A stretch of DNA of 64,000 bases from a virus, in the IMG/VR virus record IMGVR_UViG_3300024243_000005, positions 116,180 through 180,179 of that record; one strand, 5' to 3'. Below the pieces are notes generated by a model that saw only the letters and a list, made by a program, of their open reading frames with translations, ran no database searches and was not told the origin of the DNA. Positions 36,008 through 64,000 of this stretch are shown in pieces. Each line of letters begins with the position of its first letter. The stretch's first letter is position 1. A program made the translations under genes and the position numbers.

Positions 36008-38248
36008 ATGCGCGACCGTTGGTACGGTGTCACCCTCCCCGACGAGGATTACGTAAAGATTACAAAGCTCAAGAAGTTATTGCGCTACGTAAAGAACAGC
36101 AAGAACACGCCGCTCACTGGGCGCTTCTACAACGACACAATGGGCATGATTTACTGGCCACACGTCTTCGCAAACAAGCGATTTCTTGACTACTTCGCGG
36201 ATATTGTGCTCCCCCGCAACCAGATGGAGGCCGAGGCACACAAGCTGTGTCCTGTGCACCACGTCCGCAAGCACAACGACTTCATCACCTGGCTGCAGCA
36301 GCGCACGCGTATGTTCACAGAGCACCTGCTGGGCTCCCTGCTCGTCCCAGCGGCCACGCCCCCTGGCGTGGTATGCATGGAGTACGCGGCGGCTCACGGC
36401 GAGCCCAGCGAGCCCATGCACAATCGGGCCAACTACACCACGTTCCGGCGGCTCACCATCACCGACAAGGCACTGGCACGTGTACTGCAGACTCCCGACA
36501 CGCGGTACGAGCTGGCAGTGCATGAGTTACCAGACCCACTGCGCCTGATACACCACGCCTGGAAGGCGCTGACGCAGCGGGCCACCAACGCCTACGACCC
36601 CACGCAGGTGGGCATCGAGTACACCCACACCGGCTGCATGTTCATCAACTGGGATATCTTCCGCGTCTCCTCCCGCTGGCCCAAGGAGGTTGGCTGCTCG
36701 GCAGCGAGCGCCATGTTGGATATCGAAAAACTGTCCAGCTCCCACACCCTGCGCAATGGTATGGCCACCCGGGACCTGGACCCCACGGTGGACCGCATCG
36801 GGCGCTTCCGCACCCGGGTGTACAAGAGCGATTATGTGCGCCAGGCCATGTCCACCGACCTGTTCGTGGCCCCCACCGCAGACGACAGCGACTACATCCC
36901 CTCCGCCACCGTCATCGACCCACTGTACCTGGTAAAGCGCCAGCATTTGTTCGATGGAACCTGGCACTACCAGCAGCGCAGTAAGCAGCTCAACGCCAAG
37001 CGGCGTAGCCGGGTGTCCCGGGACTCACCGGAGGCTGAGGCCACCGCCACTACCAAGGTCTACTCCTTCATGTTCAAGCCGGTGGATCACCTCAAGGACA
37101 TCATCACAGAGCACCAGCTCGCGCTGTGGTTTGACCCCAACCACGAGGAGCGTGTGTACGGTATCCGACGCAAGAAGGCGATGCTCTTCACCCGCCCAGA
37201 GCTGCTCGGCCAGGCAAGGCAGGACTGCCCCGCAGAGGTGGAGGTGTGGCTGCGCGCCGTGGACTCCCTCAAGCTGGTGGAGTCGTACCGTGATGACGGT
37301 GCCGTGGGCAACATCCAGGAGCAGCTCCGCTCTGAGTTCTACAAGCAAGCTCGCCAAGAGCATCTCAACGAGATTGGTCCCCAGGTTCTGGAGCACTTCG
37401 TGAGCTACGAGCTGCTGTCCAAGGACGAACAGTACCAGGTGCGTGAAGCAGCGAAGCGCCTGCATCGGGACCGGAGCGGAGACGAAGGTGCTGTCCCTGG
37501 CCGGTGGTGGCTGGACAAGACCGCGCAGCTCGCCCGTGAGTTCGTCAAGGCAGATACCATCCGGCGCATTGTCAATGTGACGCTGCCCGGCGAGCGGAGT
37601 GTTAGCACCCAACACTTCTACACCCCCGAGGCAATCAAGCTGTTTCAAACCTTCACCCAGGGAGCCATGGGTTCCCCTTCTGGGGACGTCGCACCCGACA
37701 GCCATATGGAGCGGGCGACCATGAACCAGCTTGCCCCGACGCCGTATCTGCTGGCGTGGACCCGCTTCTGCCTGGGTATGCAGGGCAAGGCCAACTCCTT
37801 CGCCATCAAGGAGGAGCACCAGCGTTGGACACCCGCAGAAGACATCGTCCTCGCACAGCACATCCACATCAACCAACCGAGGATGTCCCGCACCCAGTGG
37901 GGCAAGCTGCTCGCGGCTCTGCCAGCACGCAATGAGTCTGCGTGCCGGTACCGCGCTCGTACGGTGAATCTGTTGCTCGCCAAGGGGCTGACCGCTGCTC
38001 AGCGAGCGAAGTATCGTATGGGCAATGTGGAGCTGAAGACGGACCAGGCGATGGCGCGCAAGACCATTTTCATCTACGGGTACCTGATGTACTACCAGCG
38101 GTCGGGCCGCAAGCTGTTGCGTACCTTGCCCGGTGTGCGCAATATCCTTAAATTGACAGGACCTCAGTTGGAGCGCTTGCCGCTGCCCACATCCTACGCC
38201 GGTGACTTCTTCTCCACGTTCGGTGAGGCGTCACCATCGTTCTCTTGA
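36008..38248 (+). CDS. Large protein with C-terminal SANT/Myb-like segment, 746 aa
   Basis: ATG with AAGGAG 8 nt upstream; the longest gene in the window and alone on its strand. The sequence is soluble and basic, without a recognised enzymatic motif. Near residue 615-665, RWTPAEDIVLAQHIHINQPR followed by WGKLLAALPARNESACRYRA looks like a Myb/SANT-type tri-helix with conserved W, ED and AC-RYRAR. Together with the AT-rich upstream region this suggests a DNA-binding protein (initiator, regulator or virion protein); unproven. Confidence 0.7.
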   Translation: MRDRWYGVTLPDEDYVKITKLKKLLRYVKNSKNTPLTGRFYNDTMGMIYWPHVFANKRFLDYFADIVLPRNQMEAEAHKLCPVHHVRKHNDFITWLQQRTRMFTEHLLGSLLVPAATPPGVVCMEYAAAHGEPSEPMHNRANYTTFRRLTITDKALARVLQTPDTRYELAVHELPDPLRLIHHAWKALTQRATNAYDPTQVGIEYTHTGCMFINWDIFRVSSRWPKEVGCSAASAMLDIEKLSSSHTLRNGMATRDLDPTVDRIGRFRTRVYKSDYVRQAMSTDLFVAPTADDSDYIPSATVIDPLYLVKRQHLFDGTWHYQQRSKQLNAKRRSRVSRDSPEAEATATTKVYSFMFKPVDHLKDIITEHQLALWFDPNHEERVYGIRRKKAMLFTRPELLGQARQDCPAEVEVWLRAVDSLKLVESYRDDGAVGNIQEQLRSEFYKQARQEHLNEIGPQVLEHFVSYELLSKDEQYQVREAAKRLHRDRSGDEGAVPGRWWLDKTAQLAREFVKADTIRRIVNVTLPGERSVSTQHFYTPEAIKLFQTFTQGAMGSPSGDVAPDSHMERATMNQLAPTPYLLAWTRFCLGMQGKANSFAIKEEHQRWTPAEDIVLAQHIHINQPRMSRTQWGKLLAALPARNESACRYRARTVNLLLAKGLTAAQRAKYRMGNVELKTDQAMARKTIFIYGYLMYYQRSGRKLLRTLPGVRNILKLTGPQLERLPLPTSYAGDFFSTFGEASPSFS

Positions 38249-39222
38249 TGCGTCTTCACACGCAGGTCAAGCATCAGCGCGGAGGCGACGTAGCGGTCCC
38301 ACGTGCACATCTTCTTGTCGTGCATGTACAGCCGTTTGTGGTGTGCCCGTTCCTCTATGGAGTAAGCGCCGAAGGGCTGCTTCTCCCCCCGCTTGTCTTT
38401 CGAACGTACGTTATGTGGGTTGGTGGTGATGTTGGTGCCCCACCGAGACCAGAAGCCGTACCCGTTCGATGTGTCGTGGAGGATGGGAACCCGTGAAGTA
38501 TTGATGTTGAGTTCCTCCCCCACGATGCGTACGAGCGGGATGGTGAGGCAGTCCGTTTTGCCGAGGAACTGCGTGGTGCCGTTCGCCAACGTTGTTTCGT
38601 ACGGATTACGGTTGAAGGCCCAGCACCCAATGGCACCTTTGCGTATGTACAGCTCCTGACCCAAGAGGGTCTCCGGGCTAGGGCGGCGGTGGTCGTAGTT
38701 CCCCACGTGCTGAGCCACGGCGTACGCCCGCGTCCACGCGCTCTCTTTCAATGGGCTATGTATCGTTTCATCTTTGCGCATCACGTCGCACATGTACCGT
38801 ACGCCACCGTATTGAAAATGGACCACCCCACACCGAGCGCAGATCCTCATGGTGAAGAAGCGGACTGCGCTCGGTGGAATCACCTTCGTCATGCACACAA
38901 TTTGTAGTGGGCATTTGAAACAGTCGGTTTGTAGTGTGGGAGGTGTGGTCAGGTACGGGAAGAAGTCGCAGTGCGGGTCATGCTCCAGGTCGAAGTTCTT
39001 CAGTTCCTCCTCCAAGACGAGATCATCCAAGACGTGTATTTGTGTGACGGTGCTTGGGCCTGTGGGGGCACCTTGAACGATGACGGGCTGCGCCGACCCC
39101 ATGGTGTACACGTGTTGCAAGTTCCTGGGAGGGCTTACCGTAATGGTCTGTAGGTGGCCCACGGGTTTGCCACCAATGACGATGACACCCTTCCCTTTGT
39201 TTGTAACTTTTACAGTTGACAC
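38194..39222 (-). CDS. 342-aa protein carrying the CxxCPxxxxC module
   Basis: GTG start. N-terminal 70 residues include KVTNKGKGVIVIGGKPVGHL. At about residue 99, DCFKCPLQIVCMTKV and later ICARCGVVHFQYGG match the N-terminal cysteine pattern of the small-gene family at 45.4-50.5 kb. The C-terminal part contains WGTNITTNPHNVRSKDKRGE. Its 3' end overlaps the convergent 746-aa gene by 55 nt. Confidence 0.7.
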   Translation of the reverse strand: MSTVKVTNKGKGVIVIGGKPVGHLQTITVSPPRNLQHVYTMGSAQPVIVQGAPTGPSTVTQIHVLDDLVLEEELKNFDLEHDPHCDFFPYLTTPPTLQTDCFKCPLQIVCMTKVIPPSAVRFFTMRICARCGVVHFQYGGVRYMCDVMRKDETIHSPLKESAWTRAYAVAQHVGNYDHRRPSPETLLGQELYIRKGAIGCWAFNRNPYETTLANGTTQFLGKTDCLTIPLVRIVGEELNINTSRVPILHDTSNGYGFWSRWGTNITTNPHNVRSKDKRGEKQPFGAYSIEERAHHKRLYMHDKKMCTWDRYVASALMLDLRVKTHQENDGDASPNVEKKSPA

Positions 39223-42256: not shown

Positions 42257-43587
42257 GTCACAGATATGAAGCCTCTGTGCTGGCGTGGGAGACATTGGCC
42301 GTTGTCGCCAGTACAAGGCCCTGGCGCTGGCGTAACGACGTGTATCGCTCGTCACAAATACAAAGCCCCTGTGCTGGCGTAGCGTCAATCGTTTCAAGTC
42401 ACAAATACTAAGCCTTTGTGCTGGCATAATGGTATCTGGCTTAGGGGCACAAATACAAAGCCTCTGCGCTGGCGTTGCCACCTATGTTGCACGTCATCAG
42501 TATAAAGCCCTGACGCTGGCCCTTAGATACGTTCAGCGTTGGGGGCACAGATATCAAGCCTCTGCGCTGGCATAAGTGCACTCCAGACCTGGGTCACGAA
42601 TACGAAGCCTCCGTGTTGGCATTATCCAGGTACGTCCATCGGCGTCAGTACAAGGCCCTGACGCGGGCGTAGGAGAGAAGTCTGGATCACAGATACAAAA
42701 CCTCTGCGCGGGTGTAAAGACGACTGCGAGGTCGGCGCAGAAACAAAGCCTCTGCGCTGGCGTGAAGAAACTATACAAGGCGCTACAGATACGAAGCCTC
42801 TGTATCGGCGTCAAACCAACCCATGTGCTTATCACGAGTATGAGGCCCCCGTGCTGGCATGGAAGTAGAATCCTAGATCAAGGCGGTAGTACAAAGCCCC
42901 ATCGCTGGCATTATTGATCAGGCAATTCTATCGCAGATACCAAGCCTCCGCGCTGGCGTTATCGATTTCCTCAATGGCGCAGATACAACGCCCCTGCGCT
43001 GGCACAGCATGTTCATGATGGCGGTCACAGATACAAAGCCTCTGCGCTGGCGTATACAAAGCGAAGTACGTTGTGGGTACGAAGCCCCCGCGCTGGCACA
43101 GACGTTCAAGAAGGCGTCGTCAGTACAAAGCCCCAACGTTGGTGTAGGAGAGAAGCCTGAGTCACAGATACGAAGCCTCTGTGTTGGCGCAACAGCAGGG
43201 CGGTTAATGTCGTCGGTACAACGCCCCGACGCGGGCACGGTTCCGTTTGGGGGTAGGTCGTCGGTACAACGCCCCAACGCGGGCACTGAACAAGTTGGAA
43301 TTCGGTCACAGATACGAAGCCTCTGCGCTGGCATAGGGAGCTATGTCTATCGTTGTCAGTACAAAGCCCTGGCGCGGGCGTAATGCTCATGGTGGCGGTC
43401 ACAGATACAAAGCCACCGTGCTGGCGTATAACATAGCGTTCATCATAGGCGCAGATACGAAGCCTTCGCGCTGGCACAGATTAGTGTAGTAGTTTCACAG
43501 GCTGCTTGTCACAGATACCAAGCCTCTGTGCGGGCACCACCAGGAGTCCCACATGGGCACAAGTACAAAGCCCTCATGCTGGCGTTG
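42257..43587 (-). CRISPR. CRISPR-like array of 28 degenerate, structure-conserved units
   Basis: 28 units spaced 45-51 bp apart (one gap of 60; mean about 48). Read on the minus strand each unit is AYGCCAG - 6-nt stem - GGCTTYGTA - 6-nt stem - AC, about 30 nt, followed by a variable segment usually near 17 nt. The stem sequence varies but pairing is kept: CACAGA/TCTGTG (42259), CACAAA/TTTGTG (42400), CGTCAG/CTGACG (42643), CGCCAG/CTGGCG (42306), TACAGA/TCTGTA (42784), CGTCGG/CCGACG (43211). Nine stems are perfect, fourteen more pair fully only with G-U pairs of the minus-strand RNA, two only on the plus strand, and three contain a mismatch either way. The GGC at the loop's 5' edge can pair with GCC upstream, an H-type pseudoknot; one unit (42700) changes both sides (ACC/GGT). 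The first unit begins one base after the nuclease gene's stop codon. No separate leader or tracrRNA was identified. Confidence 0.85.
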
Positions 43588-45354
43588 TTATGCATTTTTC
43601 GTGTGGCGCTTTGCCCACTTCGCTTGGCGGGGTGCGGTATTTACGGCGTAATCCTTGACCTTGGTGGGCACAGCTTCCTTAGCCCCCTGCTGGTGTTCGT
43701 CCCAGCGAAGCAGCAGGTTGTGCGCTGCGTTAGCGTCCTGATCCCAGTTTGCCTGGCACTCGCTGCATGTGTGCATCACCTCTTTTGAGGCGTCCCAGGG
43801 TTCTTCCGGGTGGTCGCCACACACCGCACAATCCTGTGTGGTCATCGCTGCATTCACCTCAGCGACGGCGCCGAGACGCATCGCAAACCCATTGATGAGG
43901 TTGCTACGCAGTACCGAACACGCGGCGTCCCGTTGGTACAACCGGGCAGAAGCGATCTCTCCCTTATCAGACTCGGGGAGGACGTGCCGTTGCATTACGC
44001 TCAAATCGAACTGTTCCAGGACAAGAGTGTGGTACTTCCGCGAGAGGCGAGCGGCGATGTTACGGTACTGGTCCTTGCGGCGAGCGAGGCTCTTGTCACG
44101 TTGATTTGCTTCCCAGGACAACAGGTGCTTATCCTGCTTACGCCAGTCTTCCAAGCGCGGGTAGGCCAGGGTGTCACCTGCGAAGCGGGAGTCCCGCCAC
44201 GTACGTGCAAGCGCCGCTAGGCGTGCCGTTGAACGCCAAGCATGCAACGTCGTTGCAGCCTCAATCAACCAGTCAGGGAGCGACGCCCCTTGTTTCGTTT
44301 GGCGGCGCATCCACGCAGCCAGCCAATCACGCTCAATGTTGAAGTTCTTGTCACGTGTGCTGCGCAGGTCCTCGACCTTGCGGAACCCAGAGCGGACAGC
44401 CCCCTCAAGGAGGATCTCCTCCTCATATCCTTGGTTGTCACGGAAGTACGCGACACGGAGGAGTCCACTGGGACGCACACGCCACCCAATGTCCACGGCC
44501 ACAGTGCCAGTGCCACATGTTTCGCGGCGCCAGCCATCAGGGAGCGACAATGTAAAGTGGACGCTCCAGCGATCCTTGCCCGCCAGGCGTTCACGCAGAA
44601 CTTTGACATCCTTGATCGTGGCCACCCGAGGCAGAGGACGGTGCAGGATGAGCGGCCAGGTTGCCCAGATGGGCGTCGTTTTGCCCTGCACGGTACCAAC
44701 ACGCATCTTCAACTCAGAGCGCTTCGGGTTCGAACCGACGAAGATGCGCAGAAGTGTACTGTCACAGGCTAGTGCCTCAAAACTACTCAACCCTTTTTGT
44801 ATCTGTACAGCGACGGCACCATGCCCCGTCCAACGCCGAAAGTGGGGGTCCACAAACGCAGCTTTGCGTGCTGCATCCACGGCCTTCTCAATAATTAGAT
44901 ATGTACCCCAGTAGCAACCACAGATTGCGCGTTCTTTCCGGATAGTAGCCTGCGCACTTTCATTCACCTTGTTGATGGCTGTCTGTACCGCCGTGTCATC
45001 CTTGAGTGCAGCTTTAGCCTTGCGCAGTTCCGCACGCACTGTCTTGAGCTGCTGCCGTGCAATCTTCACACGCTTCCGTTGCTCCTTGGTGGAAGAACGT
45101 GAACGTGATGCTCTGTGTGTCGCCCGGAGATCAGCGATTGCAGCATCAACGACTGCTTTTTTCGCTGTCGCTTCTTCTTCGAGAGGTTCTACCGTCGGAT
45201 GGACACCCATGATGGCGCGTACCTTCTTACGGCGGTCACGTTCAATCTCGATGAGTTTGTTGTAATACTGATGTGCCAAATGTATCTGGTCGGATACGAG
45301 ATCCACGTTTTCACACGGGGGTCTAAGCCCGTAGCGATACACTAGAATGGGCAT
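43588..45354 (-). CDS. Compact Cas12-family RNA-guided nuclease (type V-M/Cas12m-like)
   Basis: 588 aa; ATG at 45354 with AAAAAAGAGGAG 4 nt upstream. RuvC-I: VAVDIGWR with D288. RuvC-II: LVLEQFDL with E447. Zinc ribbon: C509/C512 and C530/C533 (CAVCGDH, CSECQANW). RuvC-III: DQDANAAHNLL with D540. Residues about 55-145 are a Lys/Glu-rich coiled coil, and GCYWGTYLIIEKAVD, then RRWTGHGAVAVQIQ, WKD-like ARTWRD and RRKDQYRNIAARLS repeat the layout I recall for mycobacterial Cas12m. Unlike that protein, where RuvC residues are altered, all three acids are present here, so DNA cleavage is plausible. TnpB proteins are shorter (about 400 aa) and lack the downstream array. It contains an imperfect TTTACGGCGTAAT copy near its 3' end. 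Confidence 0.85.
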   Translation of the reverse strand: MPILVYRYGLRPPCENVDLVSDQIHLAHQYYNKLIEIERDRRKKVRAIMGVHPTVEPLEEEATAKKAVVDAAIADLRATHRASRSRSSTKEQRKRVKIARQQLKTVRAELRKAKAALKDDTAVQTAINKVNESAQATIRKERAICGCYWGTYLIIEKAVDAARKAAFVDPHFRRWTGHGAVAVQIQKGLSSFEALACDSTLLRIFVGSNPKRSELKMRVGTVQGKTTPIWATWPLILHRPLPRVATIKDVKVLRERLAGKDRWSVHFTLSLPDGWRRETCGTGTVAVDIGWRVRPSGLLRVAYFRDNQGYEEEILLEGAVRSGFRKVEDLRSTRDKNFNIERDWLAAWMRRQTKQGASLPDWLIEAATTLHAWRSTARLAALARTWRDSRFAGDTLAYPRLEDWRKQDKHLLSWEANQRDKSLARRKDQYRNIAARLSRKYHTLVLEQFDLSVMQRHVLPESDKGEIASARLYQRDAACSVLRSNLINGFAMRLGAVAEVNAAMTTQDCAVCGDHPEEPWDASKEVMHTCSECQANWDQDANAAHNLLLRWDEHQQGAKEAVPTKVKDYAVNTAPRQAKWAKRHTKNA

Positions 45355-45373: not shown

Positions 45374-45832
45374 TCAGATGATTTCGTCGTCAGGGTGTCG
45401 TAGTGGGGGTTCAACGATGTGTACGGCGTGGGCGCAGTCTTGGGTGTCAACACCCAGGTTGCCACGTAGGAACATGGCGTAGCGCTCGTCAGGACCAACG
45501 GCTGTGACGTGTCGCCCTCGGCGGATCATCTGGAGGGGGTGCACCGTTTTGTAGTGGACAGCGCAGCCTTTGGTGACTGTGTGGATGCCTCGGGTGTTCT
45601 TCATATAAACGTGGATTGAAACCCCTTCCGGGATTGGTGCATGTTGTCCGTGGCGCATCTTAGTGCAGACGTACACATGTTCGTAGATGTTGAAGAGGAG
45701 GCAGAAGCAACGGTTACAATAGCGCACACGGTACATGCGCTGCACCTTGGAGGGGAACTTCTGTTGCTGGAGGCAGGGGATTGCCAGAGCACAGTGTCCA
45801 CAGGCTTTGTCGGTGGTGAGGATGGTTCTCAT
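45374..45832 (-). CDS. CxxCPxxxxC-family paralog 1 (most divergent)
   Basis: 152 aa. N-terminal ACGHCALAIPCLQQQK replaces the usual CP by CA; then YCNRCFCLLF and VCTKMRHG. Last gene of the eleven-gene paralog run and immediately upstream of the Cas12-like gene on the same strand; 20 bp separate its stop from the nuclease ATG, so cotranscription is likely. Confidence 0.75.
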   Translation of the reverse strand: MRTILTTDKACGHCALAIPCLQQQKFPSKVQRMYRVRYCNRCFCLLFNIYEHVYVCTKMRHGQHAPIPEGVSIHVYMKNTRGIHTVTKGCAVHYKTVHPLQMIRRGRHVTAVGPDERYAMFLRGNLGVDTQDCAHAVHIVEPPLRHPDDEII

Positions 45833-46275
45833 GGCTTCTTTATGGGGAGGGAGAAGGCCCCTGATTGCAACGCGTGGAGCGTCTCATCGAGGAACTCTTC
45901 GTCCATGTCATGGATTGGTGTTTGGAAGTCGTACCCCCCTTTGTGCAGGATACAACTGGGGCACACTCCCGCGTTTATGTAGATGCCGAGGACAGGGTCT
46001 TTGATGCGCGTCTCAGGGGTGCCTGTGGCGTTCGCCGCAGCGACGTAGTTTGGCACACAAGAGGAGTCGGTCATGCTGCGCCGCTCACACCTGAACATCA
46101 CCACCTTCTTGACTCGGGGTATGTGGGTGCGAGACTGCATTGATTCAGGTACGGGGTAGGTTTCTTTAAGGACGAAGCGTGTACACCTCACGCACAGGAA
46201 GGTTTCACTGTTGTTCATCTTGAACAACGCCCCGGAGAGGCAAGCGACGGCGAAGGGACAGCGCTTACATTTCAT
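45829..46275 (-). CDS. CxxCPxxxxC-family paralog 2
   Basis: 148 aa starting MKCKRCPFAVACLSGALFK (C3, C6, C12), then CVRC (C28, C31), a FRCERRS strand near residue 62, DPVLG and a C-terminal CPSC. This is the archetype of the family: N-terminal three-cysteine knuckle, second CxxC, central F-x-C-E-K/R-R, then DP-x-x-G and a last CxxC. Predicted zinc or Fe-S protein; role unknown. 4-nt overlaps at both ends. Confidence 0.8.
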   Translation of the reverse strand: MKCKRCPFAVACLSGALFKMNNSETFLCVRCTRFVLKETYPVPESMQSRTHIPRVKKVVMFRCERRSMTDSSCVPNYVAAANATGTPETRIKDPVLGIYINAGVCPSCILHKGGYDFQTPIHDMDEEFLDETLHALQSGAFSLPIKKP

Positions 46276-46649
46276 CCGATCTTCTTCCGGTGATCCTGCG
46301 CAGCGGCTTGTTGTAGTTCCTCCGACACACACGTGGAACACTTGCCCAACGGGATGTCGGTACCTGTCATTGGGTCCGTGACGTACGCAATAGTGTTTCT
46401 CGATGTAACAGCCTCGGACACTTGTTCGTGCACAAAATTGGACTCTGGGGGGCTGCGTTTCTCACAAAGGAATTCCACTATACGTTTGGGTTGTGGGATG
46501 ACACGCACACACACTGTTTCCGCCACAGGGGGATTCTCAATGATGATGAGGCGGGAACATTTAGCGCACAGACACACGTAGCTGCTGTTTATTTTGAACA
46601 GCGCCCCGGACATGCACGCAACCACGAAAGGACAGCGCTTACACTTCAT
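46272..46649 (-). CDS. CxxCPxxxxC-family paralog 3
   Basis: 125 aa, MKCKRCPFVVACMSGALFK, nearly identical in its first 19 residues to paralog 2, then CLCAKC, FLCEKRS, DPMTG and CSTC. A recent duplicate of paralog 2. Confidence 0.8.
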   Translation of the reverse strand: MKCKRCPFVVACMSGALFKINSSYVCLCAKCSRLIIIENPPVAETVCVRVIPQPKRIVEFLCEKRSPPESNFVHEQVSEAVTSRNTIAYVTDPMTGTDIPLGKCSTCVSEELQQAAAQDHRKKIG

Positions 46650-47100
46650 CGAGGTGCTCCACGGCGTATACCTCCTTGTCCCCAATGGCTTGGGGCACGG
46701 CGCCTTTGCATTCCTCACATTTGGTAATCTTGATGTGGCTCGTACCTCCCGGCGACATCGGGTCTATGGGCTCACCCAAGGCTCCTGATGATAATTTATC
46801 CAGGTTGAAGACGTCTACCTGGGGGATGTCGTAGATATCCAGGAACGCACGGTCCAGCTTCTCACAGTGGAGGTATCGACGCGCGGCAACGGCTACTTCT
46901 GTTTGCCATACACGCAGAGGGTTGTCGGGTGGTGACCCGGGAGCAGGGTCCACGTCGATGAGTTCGTAGGATGTGACCTGCAACCGCGCGCACTCACGAC
47001 AAAGGAGGATTGTGATGCTGCTCCCTATCACTGCGCCCACCTCTGATTGGAGCTTTCCCGCCATGCACAGCAGCACATAAGGACACCGGCTACACTTCAC
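46639..47100 (-). CDS. CxxCPxxxxC-family paralog 4
   Basis: 153 aa from GTG 47100. VKCSRCPYVLLCMAGKL, LCRECARL, LHCEKLD, then IDPMSPGGT and KCEECK. Contains more acidic residues in the centre than its neighbours. Confidence 0.75.
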   Translation of the reverse strand: MKCSRCPYVLLCMAGKLQSEVGAVIGSSITILLCRECARLQVTSYELIDVDPAPGSPPDNPLRVWQTEVAVAARRYLHCEKLDRAFLDIYDIPQVDVFNLDKLSSGALGEPIDPMSPGGTSHIKITKCEECKGAVPQAIGDKEVYAVEHLDEV

Positions 47101-47644
47101 GCCCGTCCTTTCCTTTGATCCCCCAGGGGTGCACCAGCGCTTCCATTGCCCCACTGTCCCGCGCTCGCTTGAACGCCAGCTCGTCGTCCAGGTTCACGAT
47201 GCGGTAGGCGCTGAAGGCACCATGCCTGCGCTCCTCACAATTACAGCGGTTGCAAACCTGCATGCGGAGAACTGTTCCACCTACGGGGTCCACGACGTTC
47301 ATTGTGATGGGCTCCGCCAAGGAAGACATGTGGTCTCCCGGGTCACCCACGGTAGATGTGGCAATACCTTTGCCTTCCGCAGTGTTCCGTACCCGATCAA
47401 CAATATCCGCGTAGCTTCGCTTCTCACAGATGAGGTAGGTCAGCGTCCCATCGTAGGGCAACACACCATGAAACTGCCGATAGAATTCAACAGTGTCAGC
47501 GGGTTCATTAGGCCCCGGACCAGCCTTGGCGTGCACAAGCTCAAGGCGCCGACACCGATAGCAGAGCGACGCAGTGCGGTCCTTGGAGTGCAGGAGCGTT
47601 CCACCGAGGCACGGCAAGACGAGAGGGCACTCTTTACATTTCAT
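47090..47644 (-). CDS. CxxCPxxxxC-family paralog 5
   Basis: 184 aa, MKCKECPLVLPCLGGTL, CYRCRRLELV, LICEKRS, VDPVGGTVLRMQ and CNRCNCEE. Longer C-terminal helix than paralogs 2-4. Confidence 0.8.
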   Translation of the reverse strand: MKCKECPLVLPCLGGTLLHSKDRTASLCYRCRRLELVHAKAGPGPNEPADTVEFYRQFHGVLPYDGTLTYLICEKRSYADIVDRVRNTAEGKGIATSTVGDPGDHMSSLAEPITMNVVDPVGGTVLRMQVCNRCNCEERRHGAFSAYRIVNLDDELAFKRARDSGAMEALVHPWGIKGKDGREV

Positions 47645-48126
47645 GGCGTGTCTCCCGTGGGGACGATGATCTTTCGCAGCTCACTCTCCTCCCGCAGTCT
47701 CTCTCGGATGAGGTTGCCCCCAGCCTGCCCCACCGCTTCAAAGATGGCCACCGTCTGCTTCGCCATCATCTCTGTGATTGCAGGGTCAGTGAAGGTGACC
47801 TTCCGGGAGTCCAGGTCCTCGTGCAGCTTAATGCGGTAAGGGAGAACACGGCGGTCCTCGGGGTCACACATGGTGCAGCCCGAGACGAGCAGTGGGCCAC
47901 CGTCCACAGGGTCCACGAGCTGAACACCACGACGTACCTCCGGAGCGGCGCGGTACTGGAACTGCAGCACGTCAAGGTTCCTCTTCTCACACACGAAGTG
48001 CAAGCTGCGGGGCTCCTGCACGAGTAGTTCGAGACGCCCACACTGAGGACATAGGCGCATAACGATGGCGCTGTGGAAGGTACCCTGCATGCATGGTAGG
48101 GCGACGGGGCAGTGTTTGCATTTCAT
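47641..48126 (-). CDS. CxxCPxxxxC-family paralog 6
   Basis: 161 aa, MKCKHCPVALPCMQGTF, LCPQCGRLELL, FVCEKRN, VDPVDGGPLLVSG and CTMCDPED, helical C-terminus with RERLREESELRKI. ATG overlaps paralog 7's stop. Confidence 0.8.
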   Translation of the reverse strand: MKCKHCPVALPCMQGTFHSAIVMRLCPQCGRLELLVQEPRSLHFVCEKRNLDVLQFQYRAAPEVRRGVQLVDPVDGGPLLVSGCTMCDPEDRRVLPYRIKLHEDLDSRKVTFTDPAITEMMAKQTVAIFEAVGQAGGNLIRERLREESELRKIIVPTGDTP

Positions 48127-48683
48127 GATTTCTTCTCTTTGTCACCAAGGATGTACTCTGGTGGCACACCCGTACCTCGTATCATGAGATTGAGCGTAGC
48201 ATCGTATCGCTCACGCATGGTGTTTGTCTTACGTACTTGGCGTAGTGTTTTTAGGAGCACACTTCTTTTCTTAGCCATCTCAGCATCGGGGTCCTTTGCT
48301 GAAAAGGTGATTCGCTGCATGTCGAGGTCCTCGTACATTTCTACCACGTACAGATTGTGCCGAGGTCCGTCACACCGGATGCAAGCAGACACAGGCAGGA
48401 AACCGCCGGACACTGGGTCGACAACCTGAATGCCTCTTCCATCCTTGGGAGCATCAATAATAGCTTGTTGCAATGTAAGCAGGTTCCTCTTCTCACACCG
48501 GAAGTACAGCGCGCGCTTTACGCGGTAAACTGGGCCGTTGAGAGCACCACGCGTTTTAACGGGGAGCACCTCAAATAGCCCACATACTTGGCACAAGTTG
48601 ATGATGACTGCGAAGGCGTGGTGATTGTCGAACCACACCCCCTGCATACACGGCAAGGCCAGGGGACAGTTTCCACACTTCAA
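48123..48683 (-). CDS. CxxCPxxxxC-family paralog 7
   Basis: 186 aa. The TTG at 48683 is chosen because it lies 8 nt after GGAGGG, overlaps the upstream TGA (TTGA) and aligns with the family start (KCGNCPLALPCMQGVW). Then LCQVCG, FRCEKRN, VDPVSGGFLPVS and CIRCDG; closest to paralog 6. A TTTACGCGGTAAA site lies in its coding region (48517). Confidence 0.75.
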   Translation of the reverse strand: MKCGNCPLALPCMQGVWFDNHHAFAVIINLCQVCGLFEVLPVKTRGALNGPVYRVKRALYFRCEKRNLLTLQQAIIDAPKDGRGIQVVDPVSGGFLPVSACIRCDGPRHNLYVVEMYEDLDMQRITFSAKDPDAEMAKKRSVLLKTLRQVRKTNTMRERYDATLNLMIRGTGVPPEYILGDKEKKS

Positions 48684-49087
48684 AACAAAGACCCTCCTGG
48701 CCCTGCTCCTGGACCGAAAATGAGGTTGTGAACCTCGTTGATGAGTTCCGTCGCGCACTCTTCACACAGGGTTACGAGGAAGTCTTTCCCTAGAACAACA
48801 GGAACGTGACTGTACGAAAAGCGTTGCACCTCCTCCCGCTTCCTTTTCACCACGCGTCGGATGGCATTTTCGAAGGCCCCCTTGAGTTTGTTGGCAGAGT
48901 AGTTTTCACTTTGTACGCAGATAGGTAGGAGGTCCCACACCTCGTGGATCTCAGCTTGCCCCACTCGCAATACTTGCACCTTGTTACATGTTGGACACAC
49001 CACGATCCCGCGCACTGGTTCCTTTCCCGCCAGACATGCTAGAGCGTGGGGGCATTTGGCACAGGCTGATGTTATTTCATGAATCAT
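48680..49087 (-). CDS. CxxCPxxxxC-family paralog 8
   Basis: 135 aa, ACAKCPHALACLAGKEPVRG, VCPTCNKVQVL; a shorter central region and a last CEEC. Two residues before the first Cys extend the usual N-terminus. Confidence 0.75.
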   Translation of the reverse strand: MIHEITSACAKCPHALACLAGKEPVRGIVVCPTCNKVQVLRVGQAEIHEVWDLLPICVQSENYSANKLKGAFENAIRRVVKRKREEVQRFSYSHVPVVLGKDFLVTLCEECATELINEVHNLIFGPGAGPGGSLF

Positions 49088-49542
49088 GATCCATAGCTAC
49101 CGGGCCGAGACACCACCCCCACGTTCTCGTGGATGGTGCTAGGGTCGTAGCCTCGCAGAGCATCAGGGTGGTCGTCCACATCAATGTACAAGACGCGTGT
49201 GCTCCGGTTGAAGTATTTGCTCTGTCCGAAGATAGCATCACAGAGGCCACACGTTTCGTCCTCGTTCCGCTGCATCGCTGCCTTACGTACGAGCTTATAC
49301 CCTGTGATGTAGGGGCGATCGGCAGGTTCCATGCTTTTGACCGGAGGGCACTCGAAGATCCAAACGATGTCGTGTAACACCAATATCTCAGGTACCCCAT
49401 TTTTCCCTGGGATACGGATGTGCCTGTCTCCACGTGGGGCAAGTACGGCGGTACGCTCACACCCCTCGCACAGATGCATAAACCCAGGTGGCTCCCCATT
49501 CTGCATGCACGGGATAGCGAAAGGGCATCTACGACAATCCAC
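49084..49542 (-). CDS. CxxCPxxxxC-family paralog 9
   Basis: 152 aa from GTG 49542, VDCRRCPFAIPCMQNGEPPG, CEGCERTAVLA, FECPPVK in place of the CEKR strand, and CGLCDAIFG at the C-terminal CxxC. Overlaps paralog 10 by 14 nt. Confidence 0.75.
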   Translation of the reverse strand: MDCRRCPFAIPCMQNGEPPGFMHLCEGCERTAVLAPRGDRHIRIPGKNGVPEILVLHDIVWIFECPPVKSMEPADRPYITGYKLVRKAAMQRNEDETCGLCDAIFGQSKYFNRSTRVLYIDVDDHPDALRGYDPSTIHENVGVVSRPGSYGS

Positions 49543-49954
49543 TATTATCCCCCAGGAATAAGCGAAGACCCCAAACGTGGTCACGGTCTTCAAGGTCTCC
49601 GCAGTAAACACGAGGACGGTCTGCCGCACCGTCGCGCTTGAGATCGTTGATACAGTTGGGGCACTTGATGACGTGACACCCACCCATACGATGCCCGGCG
49701 ATAACCTCGGGGTGTACGCGCACGAAAGGAGCCACGGGCATTCCGTTTTTGCTGGGGTCAGGGAACACGACTTCCTTGACCTTGGGACACACGAAGCTCC
49801 ACCACATGACTTGCGGACAACGGTTTCGGTACGTTTCAGTATTGACAGGACGGCGCACCCACACCCGAAGACACTCAGGGCACACCTTCGCGGCGTTCGG
49901 CGGGCGACCATTTGCCAAGCACCACACCGCGAAGGGGCATTTTGCACATATCAC
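49529..49954 (-). CDS. CxxCPxxxxC-family paralog 10
   Basis: 141 aa from GTG 49954, ICAKCPFAVWCLANGRPP, VCPECLRVWVR, FVCPKVK and KCPNCINDLKRDG. Groups with paralog 9 by the NGxPP sequence after the third cysteine. Confidence 0.75.
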   Translation of the reverse strand: MICAKCPFAVWCLANGRPPNAAKVCPECLRVWVRRPVNTETYRNRCPQVMWWSFVCPKVKEVVFPDPSKNGMPVAPFVRVHPEVIAGHRMGGCHVIKCPNCINDLKRDGAADRPRVYCGDLEDRDHVWGLRLFLGDNSGLS

Positions 49955-50532
49955 TGAGTAGTGAGCTTGATCATGCCCGGCGAGCGATGTGGCGTCGCAT
50001 CCAGGTCAATCCAGTTTTCGTCAATGTACCGGAGGGTGGCGTGGTTGGGAGGCTTCGGAAGGGCGGGATTGTGCATGTACTCACACTCACAACATACTGA
50101 AACAGTGAGCGCCGGTTGCGTACGCTGCGGGCGGGGGTCTTCGACGTGGTGCGTGACGTTCGTGTACTGCTGCCAGTACCAGTTCAGCTTGTAGATCTGG
50201 AAGTCCTCGGGAGACTCATCTTCGTGCCGCTTGCGTGGGAGAGTAACCGCCTGCATACCGAGATCAATGCTGTCCACCGAGACACCTGTGTCGCGCCGTG
50301 TTCCTGGCAGCTTGCACGCGTCCACGACATCGCGCAGCAGTGGGCGCTCCTCACAGGTGAAGAGGAAGGTCACGTACTTATCTTCGGGGGCAGTCCCCTG
50401 CGCCAGCACGAGGGTGGGCTTCTTCTTCATGTTGATGAAGAACCGCCCACAGTGCAGGCACAACCCGTAGGTCCCAGCGATGAAGCTACCCCCGTAGCAG
50501 ACCATCATGAAAGGGCACTTGCGACATTTCAT
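49951..50532 (-). CDS. CxxCPxxxxC-family paralog 11
   Basis: 193 aa, MKCRKCPFMMVCYGGSF, LCLHCGRFFIN, FTCEERPLL, later CCECEYMHNPALPKPP. First member of the uninterrupted paralog run in transcription order. Confidence 0.8.
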   Translation of the reverse strand: MKCRKCPFMMVCYGGSFIAGTYGLCLHCGRFFINMKKKPTLVLAQGTAPEDKYVTFLFTCEERPLLRDVVDACKLPGTRRDTGVSVDSIDLGMQAVTLPRKRHEDESPEDFQIYKLNWYWQQYTNVTHHVEDPRPQRTQPALTVSVCCECEYMHNPALPKPPNHATLRYIDENWIDLDATPHRSPGMIKLTTQ

Positions 50533-53361: not shown

Positions 53362-53810
53362 TTCTTCTCCGATCCTTCAGGTTTGGCTTCCGTGCAGTAC
53401 ACCTGGCGCATGCACATGAAGGTGTGAGTCCCATCCATCGGGACGGCGAGGTATAGCGCCGATTCCTCTGCGTGTTGGCGCATTAGCTTGTAGTGTAGCC
53501 CCCCGGGGATCGACGCAATGTCGGGTGTCCCCGTAGGGAGGGGAGGTGTTTTTCGTACTGTGTTGAGTGCAGCACACCGTGCTTTCAGAACGTCGATGGC
53601 TGTCTTGCAGGCGGAGGTACAGGTCCTGATGCGCTTATCACATTCCCGGGCGCTCCGCGTGAACGATTTGAAGTCCTCACGGTAGCGCTGCACCATCCCC
53701 TGGCACGTCTCCAGCTTGCCCAGGGTGAAGGTGCACCCACTGCTCTTCGGCGTCTCCAGCTTGCACCCGGAGCATATTACCAAGAGGAAACACAGGAGGA
53801 GTCTACCCAC
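53358..53810 (-). CDS. Putative lipoprotein, 150 aa
   Basis: MGRLLLCFLLVICSGCKLET: short basic start, hydrophobic core and an SGC lipobox at residue 16. The mature protein is Cys-rich (CTFTLGKLETCQG; CDKRIRTCTSACK) and helical, ending in a charged tail. Probably outer-membrane or periplasmic, exported by the host. Confidence 0.75.
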   Translation of the reverse strand: MGRLLLCFLLVICSGCKLETPKSSGCTFTLGKLETCQGMVQRYREDFKSFTRSARECDKRIRTCTSACKTAIDVLKARCAALNTVRKTPPLPTGTPDIASIPGGLHYKLMRQHAEESALYLAVPMDGTHTFMCMRQVYCTEAKPEGSEKK

Positions 53811-54588
53811 GCTTCTGCCTCTTTCGGAGGTCTTCCAAAGCCTCCTCCAGATTACTAGACAGCGCGACGGTCGCTGATACCTTGCCGCAGATCTCAGCAG
53901 CGCGGATCAGGTCCTTGGTACGCTCAGACGCCGTCAAGCTCAGGACGTGTGTGATGTTACCGTGCTGCACATCTTTGTGGTCCACGTGCCGGTTGTTCGA
54001 CGCCTCCATTTGGAGGCGCGTGATCTCGTGCTGACGTTCTGTGGTGGTGGCGACGCACTCCAGGACGGGGGTAAGCCACCCACCCTCATCGTTGGACAAC
54101 ATGAAGTCGGGCATGGGCTCTTCTTCGGTGGACTCAGGAGACTCAGCGTACATGGAACCAGCGGGAGGCTGGCCCTCGGGCAGCGCTTCCTGGGGCGTGT
54201 TGTACATGGTGTCCGGGGGTGCGTCAGCGTGTGGAGCAGAAGCTGTCTCCACCCCACGCTTGGGCGGCGCCTTGCTCTTGGCTCTCGTCGCAGCCCCCAT
54301 CTCCCGCTCGATCTCAGCGAGCCCGTGGAACATATCGCTGGGGTGTTCGTTCTGGCGGTCCCATCGGCGCAGGCCATCCCACATCTTGCGGATGTACGCC
54401 GATTGCTTGATGGAGGGGTTGAAGCCGCTGACGAACTTGCCCTGCATGTCTTCAGCGGTGCTGTACCTGCTCGTGACATAGTCACCAGCCCCTTTGTCCG
54501 TGAGCATTTCTTGCATGGACTCAGCAAGGGCCTGGATGTTGTTGCAAGCGCAGATGGCCTCCGCGCGAGTTAGCTTACTGTCCATCAT
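53803..54588 (-). CDS. Hypothetical protein, 261 aa
   Basis: Start at MMDSKLTRAEAICAC (AAGGTGGTG upstream). Middle region Pro/Ser/Glu-rich with SMYAESPESTEEEPM. C-terminal coiled coil ending DLRKRQKRG. Shares the SMYA/ESPE segment with the 316-aa gene at 26135. Confidence 0.7.
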   Translation of the reverse strand: MMDSKLTRAEAICACNNIQALAESMQEMLTDKGAGDYVTSRYSTAEDMQGKFVSGFNPSIKQSAYIRKMWDGLRRWDRQNEHPSDMFHGLAEIEREMGAATRAKSKAPPKRGVETASAPHADAPPDTMYNTPQEALPEGQPPAGSMYAESPESTEEEPMPDFMLSNDEGGWLTPVLECVATTTERQHEITRLQMEASNNRHVDHKDVQHGNITHVLSLTASERTKDLIRAAEICGKVSATVALSSNLEEALEDLRKRQKRG

Positions 54589-55025
54589 CACCACCTTGGG
54601 TAGTGTCCGTAGATTTCACGGATTCCGGGGAAGTAGGCGAGGAGGATTTGGTCTTCGGGTACTGTGAGTTCTTCTTCGACCCACGCTCCGTCGTCGTCCC
54701 CATTGTCGTCTTCAGCTTCTTCGTCGTAGTATCCGTGGTCAGGGTGAGTGTACTTAACAACAGGGACGGAATCCCACGCACGTCCCAGCGCGGCTTGTGC
54801 GTCGGCCATACAACATGCTTCATCATGTGACTCCTCCCAATCCTCGTCCGAGACGGGACCATAGTAGCCATCGTACCAGATGCGCGATGTATATTTCTTG
54901 AGCTGTTCGATGCTGCACTCCGCTGCTGCCGCGAACTCCTGCCAAAGACAGTCCTGCTCGTGCTCAGCACCAGCGGGATCGTACTCCGACATGTGTTCGA
55001 AGCAAGGAAGTAGCTCGTCACTCAT
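54588..55025 (-). CDS. Acidic protein, 145 aa
   Basis: MSDELLPCFEHMSEYDPAGA, strongly acidic (EEAEDDNGDDDGAWVEEE) with many Tyr/Trp. Unrecognised; acidity could suggest a nucleic-acid mimic, inference only. Confidence 0.7.
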   Translation of the reverse strand: MSDELLPCFEHMSEYDPAGAEHEQDCLWQEFAAAAECSIEQLKKYTSRIWYDGYYGPVSDEDWEESHDEACCMADAQAALGRAWDSVPVVKYTHPDHGYYDEEAEDDNGDDDGAWVEEELTVPEDQILLAYFPGIREIYGHYPRW

Positions 55026-55519: not shown

Positions 55520-56083
55520 TTATTCAGTCCTTTTTCTTACGGGTTGTTGCTTCTTGGTTGGCGTGTAGAAGGGTACTTGTTGCATCCCGCGCTTACGGTC
55601 GAGACCGAGACGCCGCCTTTTGGTGTGGCGCCGCTTCATTTCGAATAACCGTAATACGAACTCTTTGAACGACAACATGTGCGCAGAGCTACAGCGTAGA
55701 CGCCCTTCCAACAGGGTGGCTTCCTGCGTGAGTATGTGTTTCTTGATGCGTGCTTCTGGAGTTCTACCCCAACCACGGTGTGCCTCATTTTTCCAGAGTG
55801 CACAGAAGAGGCAATCACATTTTAAGCCAGCAATGCCCGCTTCTTCGTCTGCGAGAAACGTCTCCCGGCGAGCGGTGTACAACGGAACACAGCGCACTAC
55901 TCGTTGTGCAACCGGAGCAAGGAATGTTGCTGTTGGACTGGTGCTCCAATGGACCTCGTTTTCCAGGGGACCAAGGCTCAGTGATCCACACTTTGAACAC
56001 ATGCCCAAATTGATGCGGGGCCACCCCTCCTGTATGCACGGAAGCACCAGGGGGCACCCCTGGCACTCAGGACTTAGAATCAG
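55520..56083 (-). CDS. CxxCPxxxxC-family paralog 12 (distant locus)
   Basis: About 187 aa. SPECQGCPLVLPCIQEGW, then CSKCGSLSLG; later CDCLFC as the terminal CxxC, and a basic C-terminus (RRHTKRRRLGLDRKRG) absent from other members. No ATG, GTG or TTG in the right place; CTG (56083) or ATT (56080) is the likeliest start. Overlaps the upstream gene's end. Confidence 0.6.
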   Translation of the reverse strand: MILSPECQGCPLVLPCIQEGWPRINLGMCSKCGSLSLGPLENEVHWSTSPTATFLAPVAQRVVRCVPLYTARRETFLADEEAGIAGLKCDCLFCALWKNEAHRGWGRTPEARIKKHILTQEATLLEGRLRCSSAHMLSFKEFVLRLFEMKRRHTKRRRLGLDRKRGMQQVPFYTPTKKQQPVRKRTE

Positions 56084-56450
56084 ACCCGAAGTCGGCGGGG
56101 TCAAAATTGTCCCAGAAATCCTCTGCGAACGGACGCCCCTCGCTACGGACGACGCGCTCAAGAAGTAGCGCACGGAGGAACCGTTCGTCATGGAGGCACT
56201 GTGTAACAAGGGCGTTGAGCAGGGATTGTTCCTCATCATCGTCCAGCCTCGTGAAGTCTTGCACCTTTCCTGCGTAGTGACACGACACGCACCAGCAAGA
56301 TGCACCGGTGTCCCAGTTGTGCCCTGTTGTCCCCTTCGAGCCGTCGTCGTGCATGGTCACAGTGGCCCGGCACTCGATGTTAAATGGGCCGTACTCCTTG
56401 CATTTGGGACACCGAAGCCCCGCAAGACAATTTTCGTTGTGTGCGGTCAT
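56067..56450 (-). CDS. Zinc-ribbon protein, 127 aa
   Basis: MTAHNENCLAGLRCPKCKEY, then CWCVSCHYAG complete a ribbon. C-terminus acidic. Unrecognised. Confidence 0.7.
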   Translation of the reverse strand: MTAHNENCLAGLRCPKCKEYGPFNIECRATVTMHDDGSKGTTGHNWDTGASCWCVSCHYAGKVQDFTRLDDDEEQSLLNALVTQCLHDERFLRALLLERVVRSEGRPFAEDFWDNFDPADFGSDSKS

Positions 56451-58690: not shown

Positions 58691-59078
58691 CGCCGCTTGC
58701 ACCCTTCTTCTCTTTCTCGTAGTCCTGCCGTAGAGCAACACCACCCCACCACACGATGAACTCGGGGTTGATGTCGTCACCTTTGAGGAGGTCTTCCATC
58801 TCCTGTTGTAGCCCCTCCTTGAAGCCCGGCGAGCGGTGCACGTCTTCCCCACGATTGAACTTGTCCAAGAGGCCAATCTTCTCAGCGACCCTGGCCTCTA
58901 CACCCTTCATGGTGTTGGCGTACTCACATGCAGGGCAGTTTGGAAGATGTGCACGTAGCCACTCAACACGTTTCGCCGGTTCACGGGCGTAGAAGCGGCC
59001 TGCCTCAACCGTCTCTTCGCAGTACCCTGAGCGCCAGATGTCATTGAGCTTGTCAGCATTGGATTTGGTGGTTGTCAT
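58680..59078 (-). CDS. Hypothetical protein, 132 aa
   Basis: Helical with one CPAC pair (LPNCPACEYANTMKGVE), resembling the anti-sigma zinc motif region but without its HxxxC pattern. Unrecognised. Confidence 0.65.
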   Translation of the reverse strand: MTTTKSNADKLNDIWRSGYCEETVEAGRFYAREPAKRVEWLRAHLPNCPACEYANTMKGVEARVAEKIGLLDKFNRGEDVHRSPGFKEGLQQEMEDLLKGDDINPEFIVWWGGVALRQDYEKEKKGASGDAN

Positions 59079-59566
59079 ACTGCACTCTCCCAGATGACGT
59101 TCCCCGGCTTCATGCGGTCACAGGGGTCGTACCCCCTCTTGGACCACTTCTTCGCGAGTTCGTCCGCTCGTGCGTGTGTGATGTAGCAGTGGTCAGCGAC
59201 GGCCCAGAGGTACCAGGTGATGGAACGCCCCGTGGTGACGGAGCGCCCGCGCTGTCCGAAGTCTGTGATGCGCTTGTTCGCGTGGTCGTACCCAAGACAA
59301 TCGGTGCCGTGGTAGCGGAAGAGGATGAGACCCTCGGGGTAGTGGCACCCCCGCCTTTCAGCCTGTGCGGTATCTACGGACGGGGGTTGCCCCTGCTGCA
59401 AACACACCAAGCGGCGTTCGCACCCTTCGCAGCATGTACCTTCGTCCCAGGACGGGAGCCGCATTGCACCTGTGACTACCACAGAATGGTTGCCACCATT
59501 GCCAGAGAAACCAGTGCGCAGAGCCTCGCTCAGCTCTTTGGACCGCAACTCATTTGATGAGGGCAT
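59075..59566 (-). CDS. Cysteine-rich protein, possible remote CxxC family member
   Basis: 163 aa. TCCEGCERRLVCLQQGQPPS recalls the family N-terminus (CxxC...CxQxGxPP, compare paralog 9) but lies at residue 45 rather than at the start, and the CP is lost. Then GCHYPEGLIL. Relationship is uncertain. Confidence 0.65.
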   Translation of the reverse strand: MPSSNELRSKELSEALRTGFSGNGGNHSVVVTGAMRLPSWDEGTCCEGCERRLVCLQQGQPPSVDTAQAERRGCHYPEGLILFRYHGTDCLGYDHANKRITDFGQRGRSVTTGRSITWYLWAVADHCYITHARADELAKKWSKRGYDPCDRMKPGNVIWESAV

Positions 59567-63373: not shown

Positions 63374-64000
63374 TACAAACGCTCCTTCACAGTCTTGTAG
63401 CTCTTGCGGTGGTGTGCTGTGACGCCGTGTTCATCGAGAGCGGCACGATGTTTCTTGGATGGGTAACCGTTGTTCGACGCCCAATCGTAGCGACCGTCCT
63501 CTGCGTGCAACGCACACATCTGTCGAACCTGTTCTGCCTTGGCCAGGATGGATGCGGCCCCCACTTGCCACACCAGGGTGTCAGCCTTGGGCAAGAGGCG
63601 GTACTCGAACCTCTGTTCTCCGAGGTCCATGTCTCCATCTATCGTTATTCGGTACTTCGCTGGGTCCGCGTGACCCAATACCACGATGCGCTCAAGGAGG
63701 CGGTGCACACAGGTCGCCGTAGCTTGCTTCAACGCACGACTTACACCCAGTGCGTCGATTGTGCCTGGGGACTGCGCGAATAGGCTGTATTCGATGCAGC
63801 GCTGCTTGATGAGGCGCTCGAAGTTCTCATGCAACTTATTGGGTACGCTCTTCGAATCCCCGATAGGGAGGTCATCACGCCGTTCGCGCTTCAACACAAT
63901 TCTTCGTACGCTGGAGTCGAAAGCCACCGCTGCCACGATGAGTGGCCCTGCGATAGACCCGTAGCCTACTTCGTCTGCGCCTATGACCAGATTAATTTCT
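63373..64000 (-). CDS. rnhB: Ribonuclease HII, N-terminus beyond window
   Basis: The frame runs off the right edge. At the edge EINLVIGADEVGYGSIAGPL carries the RNase HII signature G-x-DE-x-G-x-G-x-x-AGP, with the catalytic D and E; DSKSVPNK follows, and later QVGAASILAKAEQVRQM provides the A-S-I-L-A-K segment. Cleaves RNA of RNA/DNA hybrids, removing primers or ribonucleotides. The C-terminal extension (PSKKHRAALDEHG) fits the usual fold. Confidence 0.85.
   Translation of the reverse strand, partial: EINLVIGADEVGYGSIAGPLIVAAVAFDSSVRRIVLKRERRDDLPIGDSKSVPNKLHENFERLIKQRCIEYSLFAQSPGTIDALGVSRALKQATATCVHRLLERIVVLGHADPAKYRITIDGDMDLGEQRFEYRLLPKADTLVWQVGAASILAKAEQVRQMCALHAEDGRYDWASNNGYPSKKHRAALDEHGVTAHHRKSYKTVKERL

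Follow-up and report, generated by a model that had tools for sequence, protein, structure and literature searches.

A tandem family of cysteine-rich proteins at one fixed locus in a rare group of phages

The family and its locus

The window analysed here is a stretch of 64,000 nucleotides, positions 116180 to 180179 of the 180,179-bp virus record IMGVR_UViG_3300024243_000005. At 45374–50532 on its reverse strand lie 11 consecutive genes encoding cysteine-rich paralogs (g1 to g11, Table 1). They belong to a family carried by a rare phage group in 13 to 23 copies at one fixed locus, where its members undergo birth, death and replacement by recombination at the gene starts. The family is phage-specific, and none of the libraries searched describes it. 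The original prediction of 11 adjacent paralogous genes overlapping by 4–14 nt was borne out: all 11 exist with a common cysteine framework, and neighbours overlap by 4, 11 or 14 nt. Several gene starts were corrected, and with these corrections each gene opens at or just 5' of its own knuckle. The alternative of a single frameshifted gene or a polyprotein was rejected, as each open reading frame (ORF) has its own knuckle start and its own framework.

The framework common to the family reads C-x2-C-[P]-x4-C / C-x2-C / lone C / C-x2-C. In the alignment of the 11 genes, residues C3, C6, C12, C26, C29, C46, C84 and P73 (g6 numbering) are invariant, and P7 and C87 are at least 90% conserved. An alignment of 44 members retains seven invariant cysteines, with an eighth cysteine and a proline conserved at 90% or above, at a mean column identity of 11%; the C-x2-C-x5-C spacing is the same in all 44. 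The strict motif C-x2-C-P-x4-C...C-x2-C occurs in 12 of the 847 ORFs of the window, compared with a mean of 0.01 (maximum 1) after shuffling residues within each ORF, which excludes chance as its source, and in none of 891 ORFs from other phage loci. The shared C-x2-C knuckles of the original prediction stand, but the C-E-K/R-R and DP-x-x-G motifs that it had described as family features (7/13 and 6/13 window members, respectively, and few elsewhere) mark a sub-clade only.

A profile built from the 11 genes has 13 matches and no more across the entire 180 kb record, namely the cluster itself and two outlying genes at 55520 (E 1.7e-6) and 38194 (E 1.5e-5), both of which had been proposed as additional members. 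Degenerate DNA patterns located the family in two further, uncultured phage contigs, G003 (IMGVR_UViG_3300032401_000001, 197,792 bp) and G004 (IMGVR_UViG_3300032799_000664, 130,445 bp); these were read over 80 kb and 60 kb, covering all places found by a whole-record profile search. The iterated profile collects 53 members from the three phages, 13 in the window phage, 23 in G003 and 17 in G004. A third gene proposed as a weak member, 59075, is not recovered by the profile and resembles the family only in its C-x2-C-x5-C knuckle (hhalign probability 1%, E 0.056). This single-copy gene has orthologs in G003 and G004, and its knuckle is conserved and lacks the proline; the gene may be distantly related to the cysteine-rich family.

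The three phages share synteny at the cluster, each having the conserved flanks to either side of it, so that the family occupies a single conserved site. On one side the flank is formed by a 746-aa protein with homologs only in G003 and G004, these being 99% identical to each other. Beyond the flanking gene at 53803, on the other side, lies a gene set common to the three phages, among its products a DnaQ-like exonuclease and an RNase HII-like protein; together with ThyX these constitute replication and nucleotide module genes near the cluster. The RNase HII-like protein, identified by its motifs, is cut by the end of the window and is conserved in G003 and G004.

No credible match to the family was obtained in Pfam, NCBIfam, PHROGs, PADLOC or PDB sequences, and Foldseek searches of the family models against PDB and BFVD returned nothing significant, in keeping with the earlier statement that no described family could be recognised. 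In INPHARED phages, tblastn detected nothing related to either the family or the 746-aa flank protein. A pattern scan over bacteria and archaea, with one genome for each of 84,980 species, yielded no in-frame family motif; its two matches were put down to chance, neither lying in a reading frame that carries the motif. Of the viral loci examined by pattern, L012 and L014 have a cysteine spacing only superficially alike and L013 has none. A description of the family was not found in literature searches.

Turnover of genes at the locus

In the member tree, most window proteins fall into clades made up of their own neighbours (g2/g3; g4–g7; g8–g10), an arrangement that fits local duplication. The protein g11 groups with G003 65669 and G004 20164 (support 99/93), the family genes that open the cluster at its upstream end in those two phages. 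Members g1, 38194 and 55520 are placed near G003 66273, in a tree with many long branches whose deep order is insecure. Almost no one-to-one orthologs can be drawn between the window phage and the members of G003 and G004.

G003 and G004 form a close pair in which most flanking genes are 80–97% identical, and even here 6 G003 members are without a reciprocal partner in G004. The contrast is sharpest at G003 88320, where the DNA flanking this gene and its G004 counterpart is mostly 95–100% identical up to the start codon and the encoded bodies share only ~30% amino acid identity. This points to gene replacement, gradual divergence offering no ready cause for so abrupt a boundary. In G004 9030, the upstream flank from G003 76926 is joined to the body of G003 78549. 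Across the pair, 7 of 26 block edges lie no more than 50 nt into a family gene where 1.3 would be expected (p 0.0006), the junctions being placed only to between the start codon and about nucleotide 45 because BLAST extends through the similar knuckle. The 5' segment would be a natural substrate for homologous recombination, since it is here that the knuckle is encoded and here that the paralogs are alike.

Among G003/G004 family orthologs with greater than 60% identity, median omega was 0.20 versus 0.10 in flanking genes (p 0.004); several reciprocal-best pairs below 45% identity were left out of this comparison as allelic replacements or non-orthologs. No family pair in G003/G004 exceeded an omega of 1. 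One pair with an omega of 1.63 falls outside the family: this ORF has 172 gap columns and is probably a mis-called gene. The family orthologs are thus under purifying selection that is weaker than in the flanks, and not under positive selection. Of the earlier suggestion of diversification under conflict, the rapid turnover and replacement of genes in the close pair is upheld and the positive selection, for which an alignment-based test had been proposed, is not.

Table 1. Features of the cluster and its surroundings (window coordinates)
Feature	Coordinates	Strand	Description
g1	45374..45832	-	divergent member: knuckle C-x2-C-A-x4-C (A for P), last C-x2-C lost
g2	45829..46275	-	Cys-rich paralog, ATG start; nearest paralog g3
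g3	46272..46649	-	Cys-rich paralog
g4	46639..47100	-	Cys-rich paralog, GTG start
g5	47090..47644	-	Cys-rich paralog
g6	47641..48126	-	Cys-rich paralog; modelled with AlphaFold
g7	48123..48683	-	Cys-rich paralog, TTG start; 43-45% identity to g6
g8	48680..49087	-	Cys-rich paralog
g9	49084..49542	-	Cys-rich paralog; GTG start within longer ORF
g10	49529..49954	-	Cys-rich paralog, GTG start
g11	49951..50532	-	first gene of the operon
Outlying member	38194..39222	-	family module from ~residue 99 of a 342-aa protein
Outlying member	55520..56104	-	start provisional
Conserved flank, non-member	36008..38248	+	746-aa protein, weak Myb/SANT-like match; homologs G003 84819, G004 2161
Conserved flank, other side, non-member	53803..54594	-	homologs G003 62304, G004 23126
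Possible distant cousin	59075..59566	-	single-copy gene
RNase HII-like gene	63376..63999	-	cut at window end
Cas12-like gene	43588..45327	-	matches PADLOC Cas12u1 (type V-U1), E 7.6e-98
Hairpin array	42257..43586	+	27 units of ~31 nt, adjoining the Cas12-like gene

Predicted structure and candidate functions

AlphaFold models were obtained for g6 (mean pLDDT 69.5, with a core of ~80–87 in most blocks) and for a compact member of 86 aa at L011:5663-5920 (mean pLDDT 76.6). Both models show a short knuckle helix at residues 9–13, strands flanking the second C-x2-C, and another strand that runs up to the lone cysteine; a C-terminal strand is extra in the compact model, which places its C-x2-C at residues 23–26 between strands 18–22 and 29–32. 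This compact model found no significant Foldseek match and no VIA-align match with Z of at least 2, and the best match of g6 (Z 4.1) lies outside the cysteine core. We strongly infer that the family proteins bind metal. Going by how many cysteines there are and how they are spaced, the framework would most likely hold a pair of zinc ions, or else an iron-sulphur cluster together with one zinc.

The reading that we favour, and which we regard as an even call, is that of a family built on a metal scaffold whose members are swapped, gene cassette by gene cassette, at one genomic site and serve as an arsenal for early host takeover or anti-defence. The constant scaffold carries loops and tails peculiar to each paralog. 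On this proposal the variable loops would be binding surfaces, each paralog being suited to a different target in the host or in a competitor; the paralogs would act as early host-takeover or anti-defence proteins. In the close pair, the operons of overlapping genes at the variable locus are seen to gain, lose and swap members at their knuckle-coding starts. Rapid turnover at a fixed locus is expected of such an arsenal and is what was found here. A bolder extension, which we put forward only tentatively, is that the 5' knuckle segment acts as the exchange point at which bodies are swapped, so as to yield phage-specific combinatorial sets of host-targeting inhibitors.

Several points weigh against the arsenal. 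The confidence of the models is only moderate (mean pLDDT 69.5 and 76.6). The isoelectric points (pI) of the members range from ~4 to 10, which points to no common binding partner, and positive selection was undetected. The turnover comes from one phage pair only and the block edges depend on BLAST extension; the same turnover is also compatible with a regulatory role or one in superinfection exclusion.

The main rival to the arsenal is that the paralogs are nucleic-acid-binding transcription regulators, in which the zinc-ribbon-like module of each paralog would bind a different promoter, mRNA or surface of RNA polymerase and so time phage gene expression. We consider this possible, although well short of probable. 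The cysteine pairs in the models flank beta strands as they do in zinc ribbons, several members are very basic (pI 9–10), and replication genes lie near the locus. However, many other members are neutral or acidic, known zinc ribbon families were unmatched, and regulators would be expected to persist as conserved orthologs, yet close phages replace these genes.

It had also been suggested that the paralogs are hetero-oligomer subunits. A virion or replication assembly made up of many related chains would be one example. The co-directional, overlapping genes would suit coordinated synthesis of such chains. This explanation is nonetheless disfavoured, as the gene set varies from phage to phage: copy number runs 13, 23 and 17, one-to-one partners of G003 and G004 members are few or absent in the window phage, and even the close pair leaves 6 G003 genes without a partner. 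Subunits of an obligate complex should not behave so, and we judge the proposal unlikely.

A role as WhiB-like iron-sulphur redox switches, in which the C-x2-C-P-x4-C knuckle would hold a [4Fe-4S] cluster, appears very improbable. The C-x2-C-x5-C spacing and the C-P pair do agree with those of WhiB proteins, but WhiB went unmatched when the 44 members were compared with Pfam-A at E <= 0.1, the G-[VIL]-W-G-G motif is absent in all 53 members, and the conserved cysteines number eight rather than four.

The adjacent Cas12-like gene and known systems

The cluster lies directly upstream of, and in the same direction as, a Cas12u1-like gene, which would suit accessory proteins of this nuclease (adaptation, processing or inhibitory subunits), and a partnership had been implied by the original prediction. 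We find this scarcely credible. Of the three family-bearing phages, only that of the window has the Cas12-like gene, and Rctr197k (KX853510) and two other phages, L009 and L010, have such a nuclease and arrays with no member of the family. The association of the family with the Cas12-like gene appears incidental, because G003 and G004 carry the family without it.

The Cas12-like gene adjoins an array of 27 hairpin units with a period of 45–60 nt (one gap of 93). The sequences of the units differ and a six-pair stem covaries, with 87% of cells paired and 43 cells changed on both sides, versus 17 in shuffles; none of 500 shuffles reached the observed level. The gaps between units are only ~15–20 nt, unlike those of a normal CRISPR array. 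The nuclease homologs of Rctr197k, L009 and L010 adjoin ordinary CRISPR-like arrays (~36-nt repeats at a ~72-nt period), so that the degenerate hairpin array of the window is the odd one out. At L006:4969-6864, Rctr197k has a further transposase-like gene, its second. Another annotated CRISPR array comes after it, ~5 kb away from the first. With respect to the cysteine-rich family, the type V-U1 system (Cas12u1/Cas12m) is a neighbour gene only, outside the family and absent from G003 and G004.

If the paralogs are indeed an arsenal, a single locus would supply dozens of ready-made small proteins on a ~90-residue scaffold, each of which might inhibit a separate host or defence factor. The locus also offers a clear test of phage diversity generated by gene replacement rather than by point mutation.

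Among the closest known systems is the WhiB-like family (Pfam Whib, including proteins of actinobacterial phages), which shares the C-x2-C-P-x4-C spacing with a hydrophobic residue after it; the family described here differs in its eight-cysteine framework and has neither the G-x-W-G-G turn nor a profile match. Zinc ribbons and other small zinc-binding domains would be alike in the C-x2-C knuckles that stand beside beta strands in the models. The additional C-x2-C-P-x4-C module with its short helix departs from a plain ribbon, and no match in sequence or fold links these domains to the family. In organisation, there is a likeness to the multigene families of large eukaryotic DNA viruses. Large DNA viruses such as the poxviruses have families that expand in tandem within a lineage, change in copy number and recombine among their paralogs at fixed genome regions. 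To our knowledge, phages have seldom been reported to carry large tandem sets of paralogs that exchange genes at one fixed site. The present family is alike in its expansion, changing copy number and recombination at a fixed region, and differs in that it belongs to tailed phages, consists of overlapping genes and is built on an undescribed, putatively metal-binding scaffold. What is new is thus the family itself, the expanded and recombining multigene locus being known from large eukaryotic viruses.

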